The position numbers were made by a program, and so were the translations under genes. The notes beneath the pieces were generated by a model. That model saw nothing but the letters and a program-made list of their open reading frames with translations, did no database searches and was not told where the DNA came from. From an uncultured Bacilli bacterium (GTDB lineage: Bacteria > Bacillota_I > Bacilli_A > RF39 > UBA660), in assembly GCA_944332555.1 (NCBI GenBank), contig CALVKF010000013.1, forward strand, positions 1 through 32,670: DNA of 32,670 bases, written 5' to 3'. Shown here in pieces: positions 13,920 through 32,037 of the stretch (its first letter is position 1; every line of letters starts with the position of its first letter).

Positions 13920-14031
13920 AACTATCCCTCATTTAAGTTAATATATTAACACATTTTATTACTTTTTTAAATAAATTACTTTATTATAATTCATATTTTT
14001 GATATAATCTATTATAGAATAGGTGATAAAA

Positions 14032-15492
14032 ATGACTAAAGAAAATATTAGAAAAGTAATACTTGCTATTTTATTTGTATTAATACTTGTAGTAATAGCA
14101 CTATTTATTGGTAGATTTACATATTCATATTTAGGCCCAGCACCAACAGATGAACTTACTGGTACTGGTGAAGTAACACCAAGTGGCGATACAATTATAT
14201 TTAGTAAAGGTAATGATTTAAGTTTATCAGCATCAACTGATAACTTTCATACAGGTTCTGGTAATCTAACAGATACTACTAATCCGCAGGTTAGACTTAT
14301 TGCAAGTTCTGATACAAATAATGCTAGTACCACTTATTTTGCAGGAATAAGAATATATGAAAATACTTATAAGTATTCAACTACAAATAATACAGCAGAA
14401 TTAATACTTAGTGTCTATGATGAAAATGGAACATTACTTGAAGCTAGTAGTGATACATTATCATTTGTAACAGTAGGTGATGTAAGTGGTTTTGATATAA
14501 CAGGAAAAACAGGAGCTTTTAACATAGCAATAGATCATCTAATAAGTACTAATTCATCAACAAATGGAACAACTCACACATGGACATTTACTTTAACATT
14601 TGTAAATTTAGAAACTGATCAATCAATAAATGAAACAGCAACTCTTGATATGGAAGTAGTACTTCAAAAAGATAGGATAGAGATGCCATCCATAGAAGAA
14701 ATATGTAGTGATGAATCTAATTCTAGTTTACTAGCTTGTCATGTATTATCACAATATACAACAGATGGAGAAAATGGATTATACTATCATGATGCAGATT
14801 TAGCAAATGGTGCCGAAGATAATTCATATAGATATGCAGGAGCAAGTGAAGAAGTAAATAATTATGTATGTTTTGGATCAAATGCAAGCACATGTCCAAG
14901 TGATAACCTATATAGAATAATAGGAGTATTTGGCAATCAAGTAAAACTAATAAAAAACACAAATATAGGAAACAACTATTGGAGTGGATCAAGCACAAAC
15001 ATAAGTAATACATGGAGTAGTAGTACATTAAATACAGGGACATTAAATGGGACATACTTAAATGGATTAAGTAGTACATGGCAAAATAAGATAGCAACAA
15101 CAACATGGTATGTGGGAGGTCATTCAACAACTAGTGCAACACCAGCAACATTCCAAGATGCAGAAAGTACAGGAACAACATATAGTGCAAAAATAGGATT
15201 AATGTATGTGTCAGATTATGGATTTGCAGCAAGCCCAGATTATTGGACAACAGAGTTGTTTAATTACGAACCGTCAAAAAGTAGCAATTGGATGAATATT
15301 AATATTAACGAATGGACAATTTCCCGCGATTCGGGCAATTCGACTTATGCCTATCGAGTGAATTCCACAGGCTATGTCAGTACCTCTACCGCGGACTATT
15401 CGCGCGGCGTGCGGCCAGTCTTTTATCTAACATCTTCGATAACATATGCATCGGGAAGTGGCTTGTCCACTGACCCGATTCGTGTGAACTGA
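14032..15492 (+). CDS. Membrane-anchored surface protein with DGR-type variable C-terminal lectin-like domain
   Basis: The 486-residue product starts at ATG 14032 (AGGTG six bases upstream). It has one N-terminal membrane anchor (about 8-28), a Ser/Thr-rich beta-sandwich region (about 45-215), a linker with Cys residues, then a domain with YRYAGA, YVCFGS and YRIIGVFGNQVKLIK. It ends with EWTISRDS, AYRVNSTGYVS and GVRPVFYL (459-466). That ending matches DUF6273/C-type-lectin-like domains of gut Firmicutes, a fold used by DGR targets. From about base 15258 the codons become GC-rich, unlike the rest of the gene. Its promoter is probably the TATAAT at 14003-14008. Recombination or mutagenic homing of the end is inferred; no reverse transcriptase is in the window. 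Confidence 0.7.
   Translation: MTKENIRKVILAILFVLILVVIALFIGRFTYSYLGPAPTDELTGTGEVTPSGDTIIFSKGNDLSLSASTDNFHTGSGNLTDTTNPQVRLIASSDTNNASTTYFAGIRIYENTYKYSTTNNTAELILSVYDENGTLLEASSDTLSFVTVGDVSGFDITGKTGAFNIAIDHLISTNSSTNGTTHTWTFTLTFVNLETDQSINETATLDMEVVLQKDRIEMPSIEEICSDESNSSLLACHVLSQYTTDGENGLYYHDADLANGAEDNSYRYAGASEEVNNYVCFGSNASTCPSDNLYRIIGVFGNQVKLIKNTNIGNNYWSGSSTNISNTWSSSTLNTGTLNGTYLNGLSSTWQNKIATTTWYVGGHSTTSATPATFQDAESTGTTYSAKIGLMYVSDYGFAASPDYWTTELFNYEPSKSSNWMNININEWTISRDSGNSTYAYRVNSTGYVSTSTADYSRGVRPVFYLTSSITYASGSGLSTDPIRVN
15258..15430 (+). other. GC-rich candidate variable region of the surface protein
   Basis: Hand counts give 26/60 GC at 15301-15360 and 36/60 at 15361-15420, against 17/60 at 14821-14880 in the same gene. 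Codons in 15316-15405 that fill loop positions nearly all end in C or T (gat, ggc, aat, tat, tcc, agt, acc, tct, gac). This is the pattern left when AAY codons of a template are randomised at adenines. Most exceptions (tcg, gtg, cgg, aca) sit at framework positions. The template repeat and reverse transcriptase would be elsewhere in the genome. Confidence 0.45.
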
Positions 15493-15505
15493 AGGTAGGA
15501 CAAAT

Positions 15506-15537
15506 GCTCGTCTAGGGCCCTTGCGGTCCAGGCGAGC
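15506..15537 (+). other. GC-rich hairpin/cruciform 14 bases after the variable protein's stop
   Basis: GCTCGTCT (15506-15513) pairs with AGGCGAGC (15530-15537), with one G-T pair. GGGCC (15515-15519) pairs with GGTCC (15525-15529), around a five-base loop and with one bulged A. DGR target genes typically have a GC-rich hairpin just after the variable region that helps mutagenic homing; that role is inferred here. No T-run follows, so it is not a terminator. Confidence 0.6.
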
Positions 15538-15596
15538 GGGGTGGATTTCAGAGCAATTGGAAGATAAAAAATCCAATAATGAGAAACTGGTGGTAT

Positions 15597-15646
15597 AAAA
15601 ACGTCCGGGCAACTGCAAAGCAGATGTTCAGGGGATGGCGTTTTTT
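15597..15646 (+). terminator. Terminator-like structured element closing the GC-rich block
   Basis: AAAACGTC (15597-15604) can pair with GGCGTTTT (15637-15644, one G-T pair), enclosing CTGC-AAA-GCAG and other short pairings, and a run of six Ts follows the CG core. Between it and the hairpin at 15506 lies another small stem, ATTGGA with TCCAAT (about 15556-15577). The composition here is again far from that of the surrounding genome. Confidence 0.55.
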
Positions 15647-15681
15647 GGAGTTATCAACATAAAAATAAAATGGAGGTATAT

Positions 15682-16353
15682 ATGGATAAAATAAATAGAA
15701 TATTATGGGGATTAGTATTTATAGTACTAGGTATTATAATTGCTTTAAATGTCTTTAATATAATTGATTTTAATATATTTTTTAGAGGATGGTGGACCTT
15801 AATTATAATAGTTCCATGTTTTATAGGATTATTTGATAATACAAATGAATCTAAAATGGGTAATATTGTTGGTTTAGTAGTAGGGGTATTATTACTTCTT
15901 ATGTGTAATAATTTAATTAGATTTGATATTATAATTAAATTATTTATTCCAGCAATATTTGTAATAATTGGTCTTTATTTAATGCTTGGAAGTAGTATAA
16001 ATAGTAAAGTTAAAGAAAAGATTAATAGTACTAATAAAGATAATTTAGAAAGTATTGTAGCTACTTTTGCTGAAAAGAATGAAAAACCAAATAAATTTAA
16101 TGGAGCAAAAGTAGATGCGATATTTGGAAGTGTTTATTTAGATTTAAGTGATGCTAGTATTAAAAATGAATCAGTAATTGTTGCTAGTGCTATCTTTGGT
16201 GGTATTAATATAAAAGTACCTGAAGATGTTGAAGTTAAGATTAAATCAACTCCAATATTTGGAGGAGTAAGTAATAAAAGCAAAGGTAAAAATGAAAAAA
16301 AGATCATTTATATTGAAGCTTATGCCGTATTTGGGAGTGTAGATATAAAATGA
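15682..16353 (+). CDS. LiaF-like membrane protein (cell-wall stress response family)
   Basis: The start is ATG 15682, with GGAGG about six bases upstream; an earlier in-frame ATG at 15670 precedes that site. The 223-residue product has about four membrane segments in its first 110 residues (the LiaI/LiaF-like transmembrane region). A C-terminal short beta-strand repeat domain follows, with phrases VDAIFGSVYLDL, SAIFGGINIKVP, STPIFGGVSNK and AYAVFGSVDIK, typical of LiaF-like C-termini. LiaF proteins hold back a LiaRS-type two-component system until the envelope is stressed. No such kinase or regulator is in the window. The gene overlaps the next by four bases (ATGA), so the two are translated together. 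Confidence 0.8.
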   Translation: MDKINRILWGLVFIVLGIIIALNVFNIIDFNIFFRGWWTLIIIVPCFIGLFDNTNESKMGNIVGLVVGVLLLLMCNNLIRFDIIIKLFIPAIFVIIGLYLMLGSSINSKVKEKINSTNKDNLESIVATFAEKNEKPNKFNGAKVDAIFGSVYLDLSDASIKNESVIVASAIFGGINIKVPEDVEVKIKSTPIFGGVSNKSKGKNEKKIIYIEAYAVFGSVDIK

Positions 16354-26997: not shown

Positions 26998-27006
26998 GTG
27001 GTGTAT

Positions 27007-29391
27007 ATGAACAAAAAAGGATTTACTTTAGTTGAGTTATTAGGAGTTATAGCAATACTTGCTATAATAATTGGCATATCTTTTGCAATATTTTCAAGAG
27101 TTCGTGAAGATGTCTTAAATCAAGAACTAGAAAATACGATATCATATATTGAAGCTCAAGCGGAAAATTATGCTAACGATACAAATATCACGGTAACAAG
27201 TGTGGAAAATTTAATATTAAATGGTTATGTTGAACCAGATGATGAAACAGATATATATAATCCTGTAACTGGGGAAAGTTTAAACTGTTATTTGGTAAGA
27301 AGTACTTATGAAGAGGGGGAATTTACTTCAACTTTAGAACTAAATGAAGATAACTTTTTAGATAGAGATGAACAAAGTGGTACATGTAATCTTTATACCC
27401 CAGAAGTTCAAGTCTTTATTGGAGCTCAAGAAATAATAAATAATGCTGAAATAAATTTAGAAGGTGAGTTTGAAAAAGCAACTAATAATACTGATGAAAT
27501 AAAGTGGTATAAAAATGATGTTTATCTTGCGGCCCTTGGTGCAGATAATGCTATATTTACAAAAGATGAAGCGACATATGAATGGCGAAGCAACTATGGG
27601 GAATATTATACAACTGAAACTATAAGAACTGATGTTAATGAGGGAATGGTTGCAAATATTCCTTATACTGTAGTAATAAGATATGTCGAAGATAATACTA
27701 ATACTGAAATAAGTGCATCAGCTACTATAAATATAGATAAAGAAGCTCCAAGAATAGTTAGTGTGGAAGTACCAAACAGTACTGAATGGACTAGAAAAAA
27801 AGATGTCATAATCACAGCCACCGATGGAAACGGTTCAGGACTTAAAGGAATATATGTAGGTCCTGCTGATAGTCTTACAACTTGTACAGAAGATTTAGGA
27901 TATATAGGGGTTAAAAGTACTACTATTACTTATTCTGATATTGAAGCTAGTGGAACATATCGGGTTTGTGCTATCGATCAAGTAGGTAACGTATCAGAAA
28001 TTAGTGATGCTTTTGTTGTAGATAAAATTGATGGAGGAGTAGATAGTGTTACCCTAACAGGAACTCCAACTACTTGGACTAATGGTAATGTTACATTAAC
28101 AGGTACAGCATATGATGAATTATCTGGTATAAAAGCTTATGGTCACACTAATAGTACTTCTACCAATGAAACATTATCAAAAACTATTGATCCGCCATCA
28201 AATGAAGTGGTTAGTTTAAATAGAGAGGTAACTGCTAATGGGACATATTACTTTTGTGCTCAAGATTCCCTAGGTGATGATGAACGGACTTGTGCTAGTT
28301 ATGAAGTAACAAATATCGATAAAACAAATCCTAGTGCAACTTTAAGAATTAATACTAGTGAAAGTGATTATGTTGCTAATCAGAGCACCTATGTTCATTC
28401 TTTAGTGTTAACGGCTACAATGAATGATGTAAATGGTGGCGGAGGTATATCAGGAATTGATGCTTATCAAATAACTGATCCATCTGGAAGATCTACTGGC
28501 TGGATAGATGTTAATACGACTGGAACAACATCAATTTCTAGAACATATGATGCTAGTAGAAATGGAACATATACATTAAGGGTAAGAGATAATGCCGGAA
28601 ATATTACAACCGTAACTCAATCATTTAATGTTATAGTATCTTTAAGATCTACAAGTATAACACGAACTACCGAAGATGGAAGTACTTATAGTGGCAGTTA
28701 TAATATTTCAGGTATGAAACTGTTAAATAATGTTTCTGTAAATTCTCCTGCCCGAGTTACTAGTTCAAGAATGAGTGGAACAACTGCCTATTTCACAGTA
28801 ACTGGTGGAAATACTCTAACGGGTCAAAGGCAAGGAACCTGTACAGAAAATCCAGAAACTTATAGTGCTCATTATGATAGTTGTGCCTATTACTCTTGTG
28901 ATTATGGGGATGAAGAAATAAATGGTGTATGTGTGCCTAGAACATCTTATGATGTAAGCAGATATGATGGTGATACTTATTATTTTACTATGTATTGTGG
29001 AACTATTACTTCAAGATGTAATTGTTCAAATAATACAACAGTAGATTGTGGAAGCCCATCATTACAATGTTCTTGTCCATCTGGTTTTTACACAGGTCAA
29101 AGAGAAGGAGAGGACTGGTGGCTTGAACCATCAGAAGGTATGAACAATGGTGAGTATTGTACGGGACCTGTTGAAATAGTTCACAGAAGGTATCGTAATT
29201 GTTATGTTAATACCTATAGAGCTACTTGCGAAGGTGAATATTATTGTAGTGGAAATGATATTCAAAAGGGTCAAACTTGCTATACTTGTCGAAATGGAAG
29301 TTACCGAAATGGTATATGTAGTTATAGTTGTATGAAAAACTACAATTATTGGCAATATACAATTACATTTAGTTACTATGCCCTAATTTAA
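27007..29391 (+). CDS. Type IV pilin-like surface protein A with Ig-like repeats and Cys-rich C-terminus
   Basis: The start is ATG 27007 (AGGTGG upstream); a GTG at 26998 is within the ribosome site. The 794-residue product opens with a class III/type IV prepilin signal, MNKKG then FTLVELLGVIAILAII, to be cut after Gly5. Residues about 30-247 form a globular region almost identical to protein B at 29968. Next come Ig-like/beta-sandwich repeats (DKEAPRIVSVEVPN, ATDGNGSGLKGIYVG, VRDNAGNITTVTQS) to about residue 600. The last 175 residues hold about 18 Cys in short C-x-C/C-x3-C spacings. It is far longer than a major pilin, so a tip adhesin or minor pilin is likely. No pilus motor, platform or prepilin peptidase gene is in the window. 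Confidence 0.85.
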   Translation: MNKKGFTLVELLGVIAILAIIIGISFAIFSRVREDVLNQELENTISYIEAQAENYANDTNITVTSVENLILNGYVEPDDETDIYNPVTGESLNCYLVRSTYEEGEFTSTLELNEDNFLDRDEQSGTCNLYTPEVQVFIGAQEIINNAEINLEGEFEKATNNTDEIKWYKNDVYLAALGADNAIFTKDEATYEWRSNYGEYYTTETIRTDVNEGMVANIPYTVVIRYVEDNTNTEISASATINIDKEAPRIVSVEVPNSTEWTRKKDVIITATDGNGSGLKGIYVGPADSLTTCTEDLGYIGVKSTTITYSDIEASGTYRVCAIDQVGNVSEISDAFVVDKIDGGVDSVTLTGTPTTWTNGNVTLTGTAYDELSGIKAYGHTNSTSTNETLSKTIDPPSNEVVSLNREVTANGTYYFCAQDSLGDDERTCASYEVTNIDKTNPSATLRINTSESDYVANQSTYVHSLVLTATMNDVNGGGGISGIDAYQITDPSGRSTGWIDVNTTGTTSISRTYDASRNGTYTLRVRDNAGNITTVTQSFNVIVSLRSTSITRTTEDGSTYSGSYNISGMKLLNNVSVNSPARVTSSRMSGTTAYFTVTGGNTLTGQRQGTCTENPETYSAHYDSCAYYSCDYGDEEINGVCVPRTSYDVSRYDGDTYYFTMYCGTITSRCNCSNNTTVDCGSPSLQCSCPSGFYTGQREGEDWWLEPSEGMNNGEYCTGPVEIVHRRYRNCYVNTYRATCEGEYYCSGNDIQKGQTCYTCRNGSYRNGICSYSCMKNYNYWQYTITFSYYALI

Positions 29392-29967: not shown

Positions 29968-32037
29968 ATGAAAAGAAGAGGATTTACTTTAGTAGAGTTA
30001 TTAGGAGTTATAGCAATTTTGGCAATTATTTTGGGAATTGGAACAGCAGTTTTTTATAGAGTAAGAGAAAATGTTTTACAAAGTCAATTAGAAAATACAA
30101 TATCTTATATTGAAGCTCAAGCTGAAAATTATGCTAATGATACTAATATAACAGTTGTAAGCGTGGAAAATTTAATATTAAATGGTTATTTAGAGCCAGA
30201 TGATGAAACAGATATATATAGTCCTGTAACTGGGGAAAGTTTAAACTGTTATTTAGTTAGAAGTACTTATGAGGATGGAGAATTTACATCAGTTTTAGAA
30301 ATAGATGCCAATAACTATTTAGATAGAGATGAACAAAGTGGCACATGTAATCTTTATACCCCAGAAGTTCAACTTTTTATTGGAGCTCAAGAAATAATAA
30401 ATGATGCACAGATAAATTTAGATGGCGAATTTGAAAAAGTAACTAATAATACTGATGAAATAAAGTGGTATAAAAATGATGTTTATCTAGCAGCCCTTGG
30501 GGCAGATAATGCTCTATTTAAAAAAGATGAAGCGACATATGAATGGCGAAGCAACTATGGGGAATATTATACAACTGAAACTATAAGAACTACTGTTAAT
30601 GAGGGCATGATTGCAAATATTCCTTATACTGTAGTAATAAGATATGTCGAAGATAATACTAATACTGAAATAAGTGCTTCAGCTACTATAAATATAGATA
30701 AAGAAGCTCCAGAAATAATTAATATAAATATTCCCAACATGGAAGACTGGTCAAAGGAAAAAACTGGTACTATTGAAGCAAACGATGGCTATGGTTCAGG
30801 AGTTTATGGAATAAATTTATTTAGAAATGCATCTTTAACTGAATGTCCAACAGATAAAGAGCAATATATTGTAGCCGAACAAAATTCCATACCTGTTACA
30901 ATTACCCAAAGTGGTACATATCAAGTATGTACTATTGATAATGCTGGAAATCCATCAGAAATATCTGATGATACAACATTTACGATAGATACAATTGATA
31001 ATGGTATAGATGGTGATGTAACAATAACTGCTACACCTACAACACCAACAAGAGAAGTAACACTAACAGGAACAGGAAGTGATTCAGGATCTGGAATTGT
31101 AGGCTATCAATTTACTACTCAAAATAAACCAACGACTGGTTGGAATAAAATAGATAATACCGAAAGTATTACAATTGATCATATCGACCCAATAATTCAA
31201 AATGATGAATATTATTTCTGTGTAATTGATGATTTAGGTTATTCTGAATGTGCTAGTGTTAACGTTACAAACATTGACCGTGAAGGACCGGTTTATCAAA
31301 GTGGAGGCCGTGTTAGTTTAGGGTCATTTACGCAAGCTACATTTACTGATAAAAATCCGCCAGTTACAGTTACTTATTTAGTAAAAACAAATAGCAGTAC
31401 TCCAGCAGCTTCAAGTATTACATCGACAAGTAGAACTTTTTCAACAACTTGTGGCCAAACTTATTATGTTTTTGCTAAAGCTGTAGATTCTTTAGGTAAC
31501 TATACTATAAGACAATTAGGTTCTGTATCTTCAGAAGCTTGTTGTGATGAAGGAACATATAGATATTCATCTTGTTCTAGTCGGGGTTATGAAATACATT
31601 CTCGGTATAATGAATGTACCGGCAGAACTGAAACCATAACCACCACTAATACATGTAGATCAAATTCAGTTTGTGATTATAGCTGGGGACCATGTGAACC
31701 AAATAATAGAAAGTACCGTTATTGTTATTATTATATTGGTGGAAGATACTATGAATACGAAGAAAGTACATATTGTTATTATGGTGGCGGAAGTACCGGT
31801 GGAGGTTCAACTGGTGGAGGTTCAACTGGGGGGAATAATGATGACGATGATGAACCATACAAATATTGGTGTGAAGACATTGGATCAAATTCAAATAGTT
31901 GTTCATCAATAGGAAAAGGACAAGGCCAATGTAACCCTACTTCTGAATCAAGCAGTGCATGTGCTGGATATACTTATTGTTGCTGTTGTTGTGCTAAAGG
32001 AGATGAATGGGATGGAAGAGGTAATTGCTATAGGTAA
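29968..32037 (+). CDS. Type IV pilin-like surface protein B with Gly-Ser-Thr linker and Cys-rich C-terminus
   Basis: The 689-residue product begins MKRRG-FTLVELLGVIAILAII (prepilin signal). Residues 1 to about 247 are nearly identical to protein A, including long identical DNA runs around 30500-30690. After DKEAP the two differ: B has its own Ig-like repeats (NDGYGSGVYGINLF, TGSDSGSGIVGYQF, AVDSLGNYTIRQLG) to about residue 515. A Cys-rich part follows, then a linker of three GGGST units with an acidic DDDDE, and a last Cys-rich segment with five Cys in a row (about 671-675). Start ATG 29968 follows GTAGGTG. A duplicated adhesin or minor pilin with a replaced tip is the best reading. Confidence 0.85.
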   Translation: MKRRGFTLVELLGVIAILAIILGIGTAVFYRVRENVLQSQLENTISYIEAQAENYANDTNITVVSVENLILNGYLEPDDETDIYSPVTGESLNCYLVRSTYEDGEFTSVLEIDANNYLDRDEQSGTCNLYTPEVQLFIGAQEIINDAQINLDGEFEKVTNNTDEIKWYKNDVYLAALGADNALFKKDEATYEWRSNYGEYYTTETIRTTVNEGMIANIPYTVVIRYVEDNTNTEISASATINIDKEAPEIININIPNMEDWSKEKTGTIEANDGYGSGVYGINLFRNASLTECPTDKEQYIVAEQNSIPVTITQSGTYQVCTIDNAGNPSEISDDTTFTIDTIDNGIDGDVTITATPTTPTREVTLTGTGSDSGSGIVGYQFTTQNKPTTGWNKIDNTESITIDHIDPIIQNDEYYFCVIDDLGYSECASVNVTNIDREGPVYQSGGRVSLGSFTQATFTDKNPPVTVTYLVKTNSSTPAASSITSTSRTFSTTCGQTYYVFAKAVDSLGNYTIRQLGSVSSEACCDEGTYRYSSCSSRGYEIHSRYNECTGRTETITTTNTCRSNSVCDYSWGPCEPNNRKYRYCYYYIGGRYYEYEESTYCYYGGGSTGGGSTGGGSTGGNNDDDDEPYKYWCEDIGSNSNSCSSIGKGQGQCNPTSESSSACAGYTYCCCCCAKGDEWDGRGNCYR
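31783..31827 (+). repeat. Three 15-bp tandem repeats encoding GGGST units
   Basis: Units at 31783, 31798 and 31813; the last two are identical (ggtggaggttcaact) and the first uses other codons (ggtggcggaagtacc). They encode a flexible GGGST x3 linker in protein B. Copy number could change by slippage without a frame shift. Confidence 0.85.

Follow-up and report, generated by a model that had tools for sequence, protein, structure and literature searches.

Remote targets of diversity-generating retroelements (DGRs) are already known from Treponema denticola, where a single core has as many as seven target genes at a distance from the reverse transcriptase (RT) (PMC4891356), and from Thiohalocapsa PB-PSB1, which carries several DGR loci, some without RT or template repeat (TR), that are apparently diversified in trans (PMC10907252). 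Targets with a DUF6273 domain are known as well, from Faecalibacterium prophages, where the variable repeat (VR) lies at the C-terminus of that domain (PMC11792537). The 32,670-nucleotide stretch of DNA analyzed here ("the window") comes from an uncultured gut Bacilli genome (G000; 1.33 Mb, 64 contigs, about 94% complete). We argue that this 1.3 Mb genome holds a natural multi-target DGR, presumably acting in trans, and that template-bearing orphan targets and the exchange of cassettes between species are part of it; it is a compact system for asking how remote targets are recognized.

The window's system resembles the DGR of Bordetella phage BPP-1 (mtd, avd, TR, brt) in its adenine-specific transfer from TR to VR and GC-rich 3' homing region, as well as in the hairpin after the VR, the Avd-type accessory, and a target that is here predicted to be C-type-lectin-like (see also PMC3240598). 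In contrast to BPP-1, it is chromosomal and not phage-borne, its target is remote, it has an extra MutS-I-like protein and an intron in the RT, and about 80 bases separate the end of the VR from the hairpin. With T. denticola it shares remote surface-protein targets and adenine-biased VR differences (PMC4891356); the accessory there is HRDC, whereas here we find an Avd-like protein and MSL, a MutS_I-domain protein, together with an orphan target that has its own TR. It is like Thiohalocapsa in having multiple loci, some without RT or TR (PMC10907252), but that organism has other targets, a 7.95 Mb genome, and transposon-driven duplication, compared to DUF6273-like targets in 1.3 Mb here. The Faecalibacterium DGRs share the position of the VR (PMC11792537), although they diversify phage proteins and not a bacterial chromosomal gene family. 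Two features of our system are unusual: a group II intron interrupts the YMDD box of the RT, and in many cassettes the hairpin is followed by a terminal DnaA-box-like TTATCMACA.

The gene of interest is a single open frame, running from 14023 or 14032 to 15492 (489 aa from the GTG at 14023, with an ATG at 14032), and its C-terminus, RGVRPVFYL..DPIRVN, contains the GVRPVFYL that a sequence-only reading had placed at the end of a loop region. GC content is 31.4% in the gene body (14032-15257), 45.1% at 15258-15492, and 55.4% in the VR core; it is 47.0% after the stop (15493-15660) and 24.1% in the next gene downstream. Over 235-nt intervals the local maximum is 53.6% (start 15309), and elsewhere in the 32.7 kb no interval exceeds 42.6%. 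The rise within one ORF described in that reading is real and local. A variable region is likewise present, but its limits are 15318 to about 15425, and it does not begin at 15258, as the proposed extent of 15258-15430 had it. Part of the GC step (43.6% in the TR vs. 55.4% in the VR) is explained by the scarcity of template adenines in framework codons together with A-to-N changes that raise GC. Because the hairpin is GC-rich and C or G is used where T would do, the data also suggest that the cassette derives from a GC-richer background.

Table 1. Features of the target locus in the window.
Feature	Position	Strand	Basis
Target gene, N-terminally membrane-anchored surface protein	14023-15492	+	ORF; hydrophobic N-terminus (sequence reading); C-terminal PF19789 DUF6273 match
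DUF6273 / C-type-lectin-like C-terminal domain carrying the VR	14710-15489	+	27-member alignment; AlphaFold2 model
VR core	15318-15418	+	16 mismatches to TR G000:C15:5632-5739, 14 at template adenines
IMH-like 3' end of VR	15406-15426	+	GGCGTGCGGCCAG common to TR; then TCTTTTAT in VR vs. ACCTTTAC in TR
3' hairpin GCTCGTCTAGGGCCCTTGCGGTCCAGGCGAGC downstream of VR	15506-15537	+	DNA fold z=-2.35; identical in own contigs C13, C58, C15
Spacer, similar to the VR-TR spacer of G013:C3	15544-15650	+	Sequence reading; weak second hairpin about 15600-15642
DnaA-box-like TTATCAACA	15651-15659	+	BLAST breakpoints; motif enrichment after GC-rich VRs

We conclude that this GC-rich stretch very probably belongs to a remote target of a chromosomal DGR and comprises its VR, with the 3' homing region, and its hairpin, because its TR/VR pair is adenine-specific, an RT and an Avd-like gene are present in the genome, and complete cassettes occur in congeners. 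Searching the window's own genome with 15258-15660 returned paralogs on contigs C58 (88%) and C15 (73%), plus a separate copy at C15:5632-5739 (L010:5632-5739) that lies outside any gene and reads AAT, AAC, or GAC at the positions that vary in the coding copies. This copy is the TR used in our comparisons; it is an orphan, since the cis TR expected next to the RT most likely lies in an assembly gap. Aligned with this orphan TR over 101 bases, the window VR shows 16 mismatches, of which 14 are at the 33 adenines of the TR (p=1.2e-6). The sister VR on C58 has 19 mismatches, 18 at adenines (p=4.4e-10). The template reads AAT/AAC/GAC where the window has the variable codons GAT, GGC, ACT, TAT, AGT, ACC, TCT, GAC, TAT, and CGC; the loop codons thus do look as if AAY codons had been randomized at their adenines, as had been proposed from the window. 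The codons TCG, GCC, GTG, TCC, GGC, CGG, and CCA are mostly the same in template and VR, in agreement with the claim that framework codons are constant in type. The same reading had expected a template with mismatches only at adenines; the template exists, but two of the 16 mismatches, TTT to TAT and GTG to GCG, are both at a template T. The difference between VR and TR at the IMH-like end (Table 1) is also seen in loci of two congeners, G013 and G001.

The clearest comparison is between the window and C58. Their 3' flanks, including the hairpin, are identical at 125 of 125 bases, and their VRs differ at 27 of 101 positions, with 24 of these 27 differences at template adenines (p=7.5e-13). Because an identical flank lies beside VR differences so concentrated at adenines, the pattern is, on the evidence of this alignment, the mark of mutagenic retrohoming after recent copying. 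An even spread of differences over all bases, which the earlier reading had named as the pattern that speaks against a DGR, is contradicted by this recently copied sister VR.

Complete cassettes are found in related genomes. In G013 and G001, the gene order is target, hairpin, TR, MSL (whose MutS_I match is above the Pfam cut-off), Avd, and RT, and the share of TR/VR mismatches at adenines is 22/22 in G013:C8, 16/18 in G013:C3, and 16/19 in G001:C1; an orphan pair, G013:C16, has 15 of 16 at template adenines. Among 35 related RT loci from Bacilli, about half have adenine-specific TR/VR pairs nearby. The G013:C3 cassette is flanked by genes that match C58 on the upstream side of the target and C1 on the downstream side of the RT, so a gap in the assembly, between C58 and C1, most likely interrupts the RT-linked DGR of the window's genome and would contain the cis TR. 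The spacers of C58 and C15 are identical at 96 of 97 bases, which suggests that the missing cis TR resembles the TR on C15.

Contig C1 carries the machinery: an RT (RVT_1 match) preceded by an Avd-like gene and, at the contig end, the 3' end of a MutS-I-like ORF, the position occupied by the above-cut-off MutS_I-domain protein upstream in congeners. The RT has the DGR-type motif GLPIGNVSSQ. The Avd-like gene (114 aa) matches NF033474 with E 1.4e-8, which is below the model cut-off, and a profile of the Avd alignment searched against the PDB matched no Avd structure. The best PDB match of an uninterrupted RT homolog, from G013:C8, is 8ub7 (E 1.5e-21), well above group II maturases; we take 8ub7 to be the BPP-1 DGR reverse transcriptase. 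From its motif, gene neighbors, and similarity, the C1 RT probably belongs to the DGR clade. A DGR-type RT, adjoining an Avd-like gene, is thus present in the genome, where the sequence-only reading had proposed to look for one. With the VR, the IMH-like end, and the hairpin in the window, the RT on C1, and the TR on C15, the locus has the layout of a DGR target remote from its RT that was predicted. A scan of viral contigs returned no relative of the DGR RT at the sensitivity of the scan, and phage records contained only distant relatives (<60% identity); these results do not support a recent origin from a prophage. The relatives of the RT are MAGs labeled uncultured Bacilli and similar. A second RT on C1 (L028:5407-6384) is retron-like, with a YSDD motif and without the SQ motif; no TR/VR link was seen for it, and it is apparently unrelated to the DGR.

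In the mechanism that we propose, the RT-Avd complex from C1 would reverse-transcribe TR-containing RNA, inserting bases at random opposite adenines. The resulting cDNA would replace the VR at 15318-15418 by retrohoming, for which the GC-rich 3' end of the VR and the hairpin beyond it would be used. The outcome would be new residues at the codons with an AAY template, which lie on what is predicted to be the ligand face of a C-type-lectin-like cell-surface domain.

The RT itself is split by a 1.9 kb group II intron (L027:10375-8479 on G000:C1, minus strand; Rfam RF02005 and RF00029; limits from sequence reading), which interrupts the codon for the second Asp of YMDD behind its first base. The window gene could be a former DGR target whose VR is now frozen, either through this split RT or through lost homing; this would be a sub-case of the DGR target reading and not exclusive of it. 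The intron within the catalytic box, the two non-adenine mismatches, and several paralogs in the same genome that look like frozen, AT-drifted VRs all fit such a history. We nevertheless consider it unlikely, although worth keeping in mind: joining the exons across the predicted splice junction gives YMDDFIILDS with the RT frame intact, the intron retains an open frame for its own protein, and the RT of G013:C3 (L059) is interrupted at the same position. Moreover, the window has the same 3' flank and hairpin, base for base, as C58, which most likely holds the copy linked to the RT, and no AT drift is seen in them. Returning to the reading of the locus as a DGR target, the intron presumably splices, the DGR is probably active at present, and its RT would then act in trans on the window VR today.

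The 3' cassette, consisting of the lectin end, VR, hairpin, and spacer, moves as a block between loci. At the orthologous locus in the sister species G013 and G002, the downstream gene is kept at 93-94% identity and the N-terminal half of the target at 80%, while the 3' half, from about 14955 to 15648-15651 (BLAST breakpoints), has either been replaced or diverged strongly and carries a different type of VR and a different hairpin; at this locus, G001 and G017 have an AT-rich VR and no hairpin. The earlier reading had allowed that the GC-rich end might be a recombined cassette, and a cassette brought in from a GC-richer source or a paralog, without hypermutation, fits both this exchange beside a conserved downstream gene and the contrast between GC-rich and AT-rich VR genes within one genome. 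This idea survives insofar as the 3' cassettes do differ between sister species, but the adenine-specific differences are left unexplained: recombination alone would not make 24 of the 27 differences in the VR coincide with template adenines next to a flank of 125 identical bases, and as the sole explanation it is contradicted by the adenine-specific TR/VR relation. We therefore regard it as highly improbable. Ordinary diversifying selection at the lectin loop, or phase variation by gene conversion among paralogs, is less credible still, since despite about two dozen paralogs in the genome and visible cassette exchange, there is a non-coding copy that serves as template and reads AAY at the variable codons, and the mismatches in G013:C8 are without exception at template adenines.

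Exchange appears to reach the templates of the DGR as well. The target and TR on C15 have no RT nearby, their neighbors being ruvA and an Obg-type GTPase gene, and the same arrangement of orphan target plus TR is found in G013:C16 (L063). Over 150 bases, the orphan TR of G013:C16 has the same sequence as the RT-linked TR on G013:C52, and it accounts for the VR on C15 of the window's genome (18 of 22 mismatches at adenines) more fully than the TR on C15 itself. From these matches, templates seem, like targets, to be exchanged or homogenized between loci. In L034 (G017:C34) and L053 (G001:C42), a truncated template repeat comes after the target, and another hairpin and TTATCAACA form the end.

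The GC-rich hairpin noted after the stop is present and conserved. It occurs in two main forms, the second in relatives, whose upper stems differ yet still pair; an Rfam search of 14900-15900 returned no known RNA. The weak second hairpin listed in Table 1 does not hold up as a structure, with a fold of 15600-15660 no better than shuffles. Homology to the sister-species loci restarts at 15648/15651, at the DnaA-box-like motif, and many target cassettes continue past the hairpin into TTATCAACA or TTATCCACA, in a single orientation. After GC-rich VRs, TTATC[AC]ACA is found in 12 of 40 cassette families compared to 0.18 expected from mononucleotide shuffles, a count inflated by shared ancestry; on the reverse strand after the GC-rich VRs of these 40 families it was not found, and neither 9-mer occurs downstream of 13 AT-rich VR genes. 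This one-sided enrichment (with 0/13 after AT-rich VRs) argues against chance or coding bias. Both 9-mers cluster upstream of dnaA, between it and rnpA, in the window's genome, with seven in about 0.6 kb vs. 0.12 per kb in the background set, and a dnaA origin-region cluster of the two lies at L151:2418-2622. The pattern CGGAGG..AGTTATCMACA has 15 matches in 288 genomes, in 5 congeners, nearly all directly 3' of such VR genes.

In a reconstituted DGR, retrohoming is reported to be linked to the direction of replication (PMC12875486), and the hairpin with its DnaA-box-like motif is a concrete candidate for that link. We tentatively suggest that the TTATCMACA after the hairpin ties retrohoming either to replication or to the opening of strands by DnaA, a speculative role for the box in homing that we think doubtful on balance; none of the papers searched connects DGRs with DnaA in this way. 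The hairpin-box unit may also mark the end of the exchangeable target cassette, letting one RT serve many loci.

The C-terminal domain matches PF19789 (DUF6273) with E 4e-4 and 20.7 bits, below the gathering score of 23.5, yet the BFVD structural neighbors of its model are named DUF6273; the target is therefore related to DUF6273 rather than a formal member. The AlphaFold2 model (pLDDT 84.8, pTM 0.88) is closest to 9qa6 (Z 16.0), the N-terminal region of the Thomasclavelia ramosa IgA peptidase. Further matches, at Z of about 4-7, which may reflect a common arrangement, are to C-type-lectin and formylglycine-enzyme-like folds and include the Lcl C-terminal domain, PvdO, EgtB, and animal CTLDs; Mtd and TvpA are absent among the matches listed, which does not exclude them. 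A profile search of the genome returned about two dozen full-length paralogs, with GC at the VR position of 0.44-0.58 in about ten and 0.23-0.37 in the rest. Three copies can be related directly, and adenine-specifically, to a template from the genus, and roughly ten have a GC-rich tail; the AT-rich paralog VRs are probably frozen and drifted.

A second DGR lineage, with EWTITP-type VRs, is seen in L102 (contig CALVIU010000032.1), where MSL, Avd, RT, and TR lie between two targets. Further EWTITP-type VRs, with hairpin and box, are found elsewhere in that species, and others lie on contigs C7, C11, and C20 of the window's genome, in which a search for a template of this "ITP" lineage returned only two coding VRs on C7 at meaningful E-values. 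Within the window itself, 26998-29391 and 29968-32037 encode paralogous long proteins in near tandem, with a prepilin-like N-terminus and divergent cysteine-rich C-termini.
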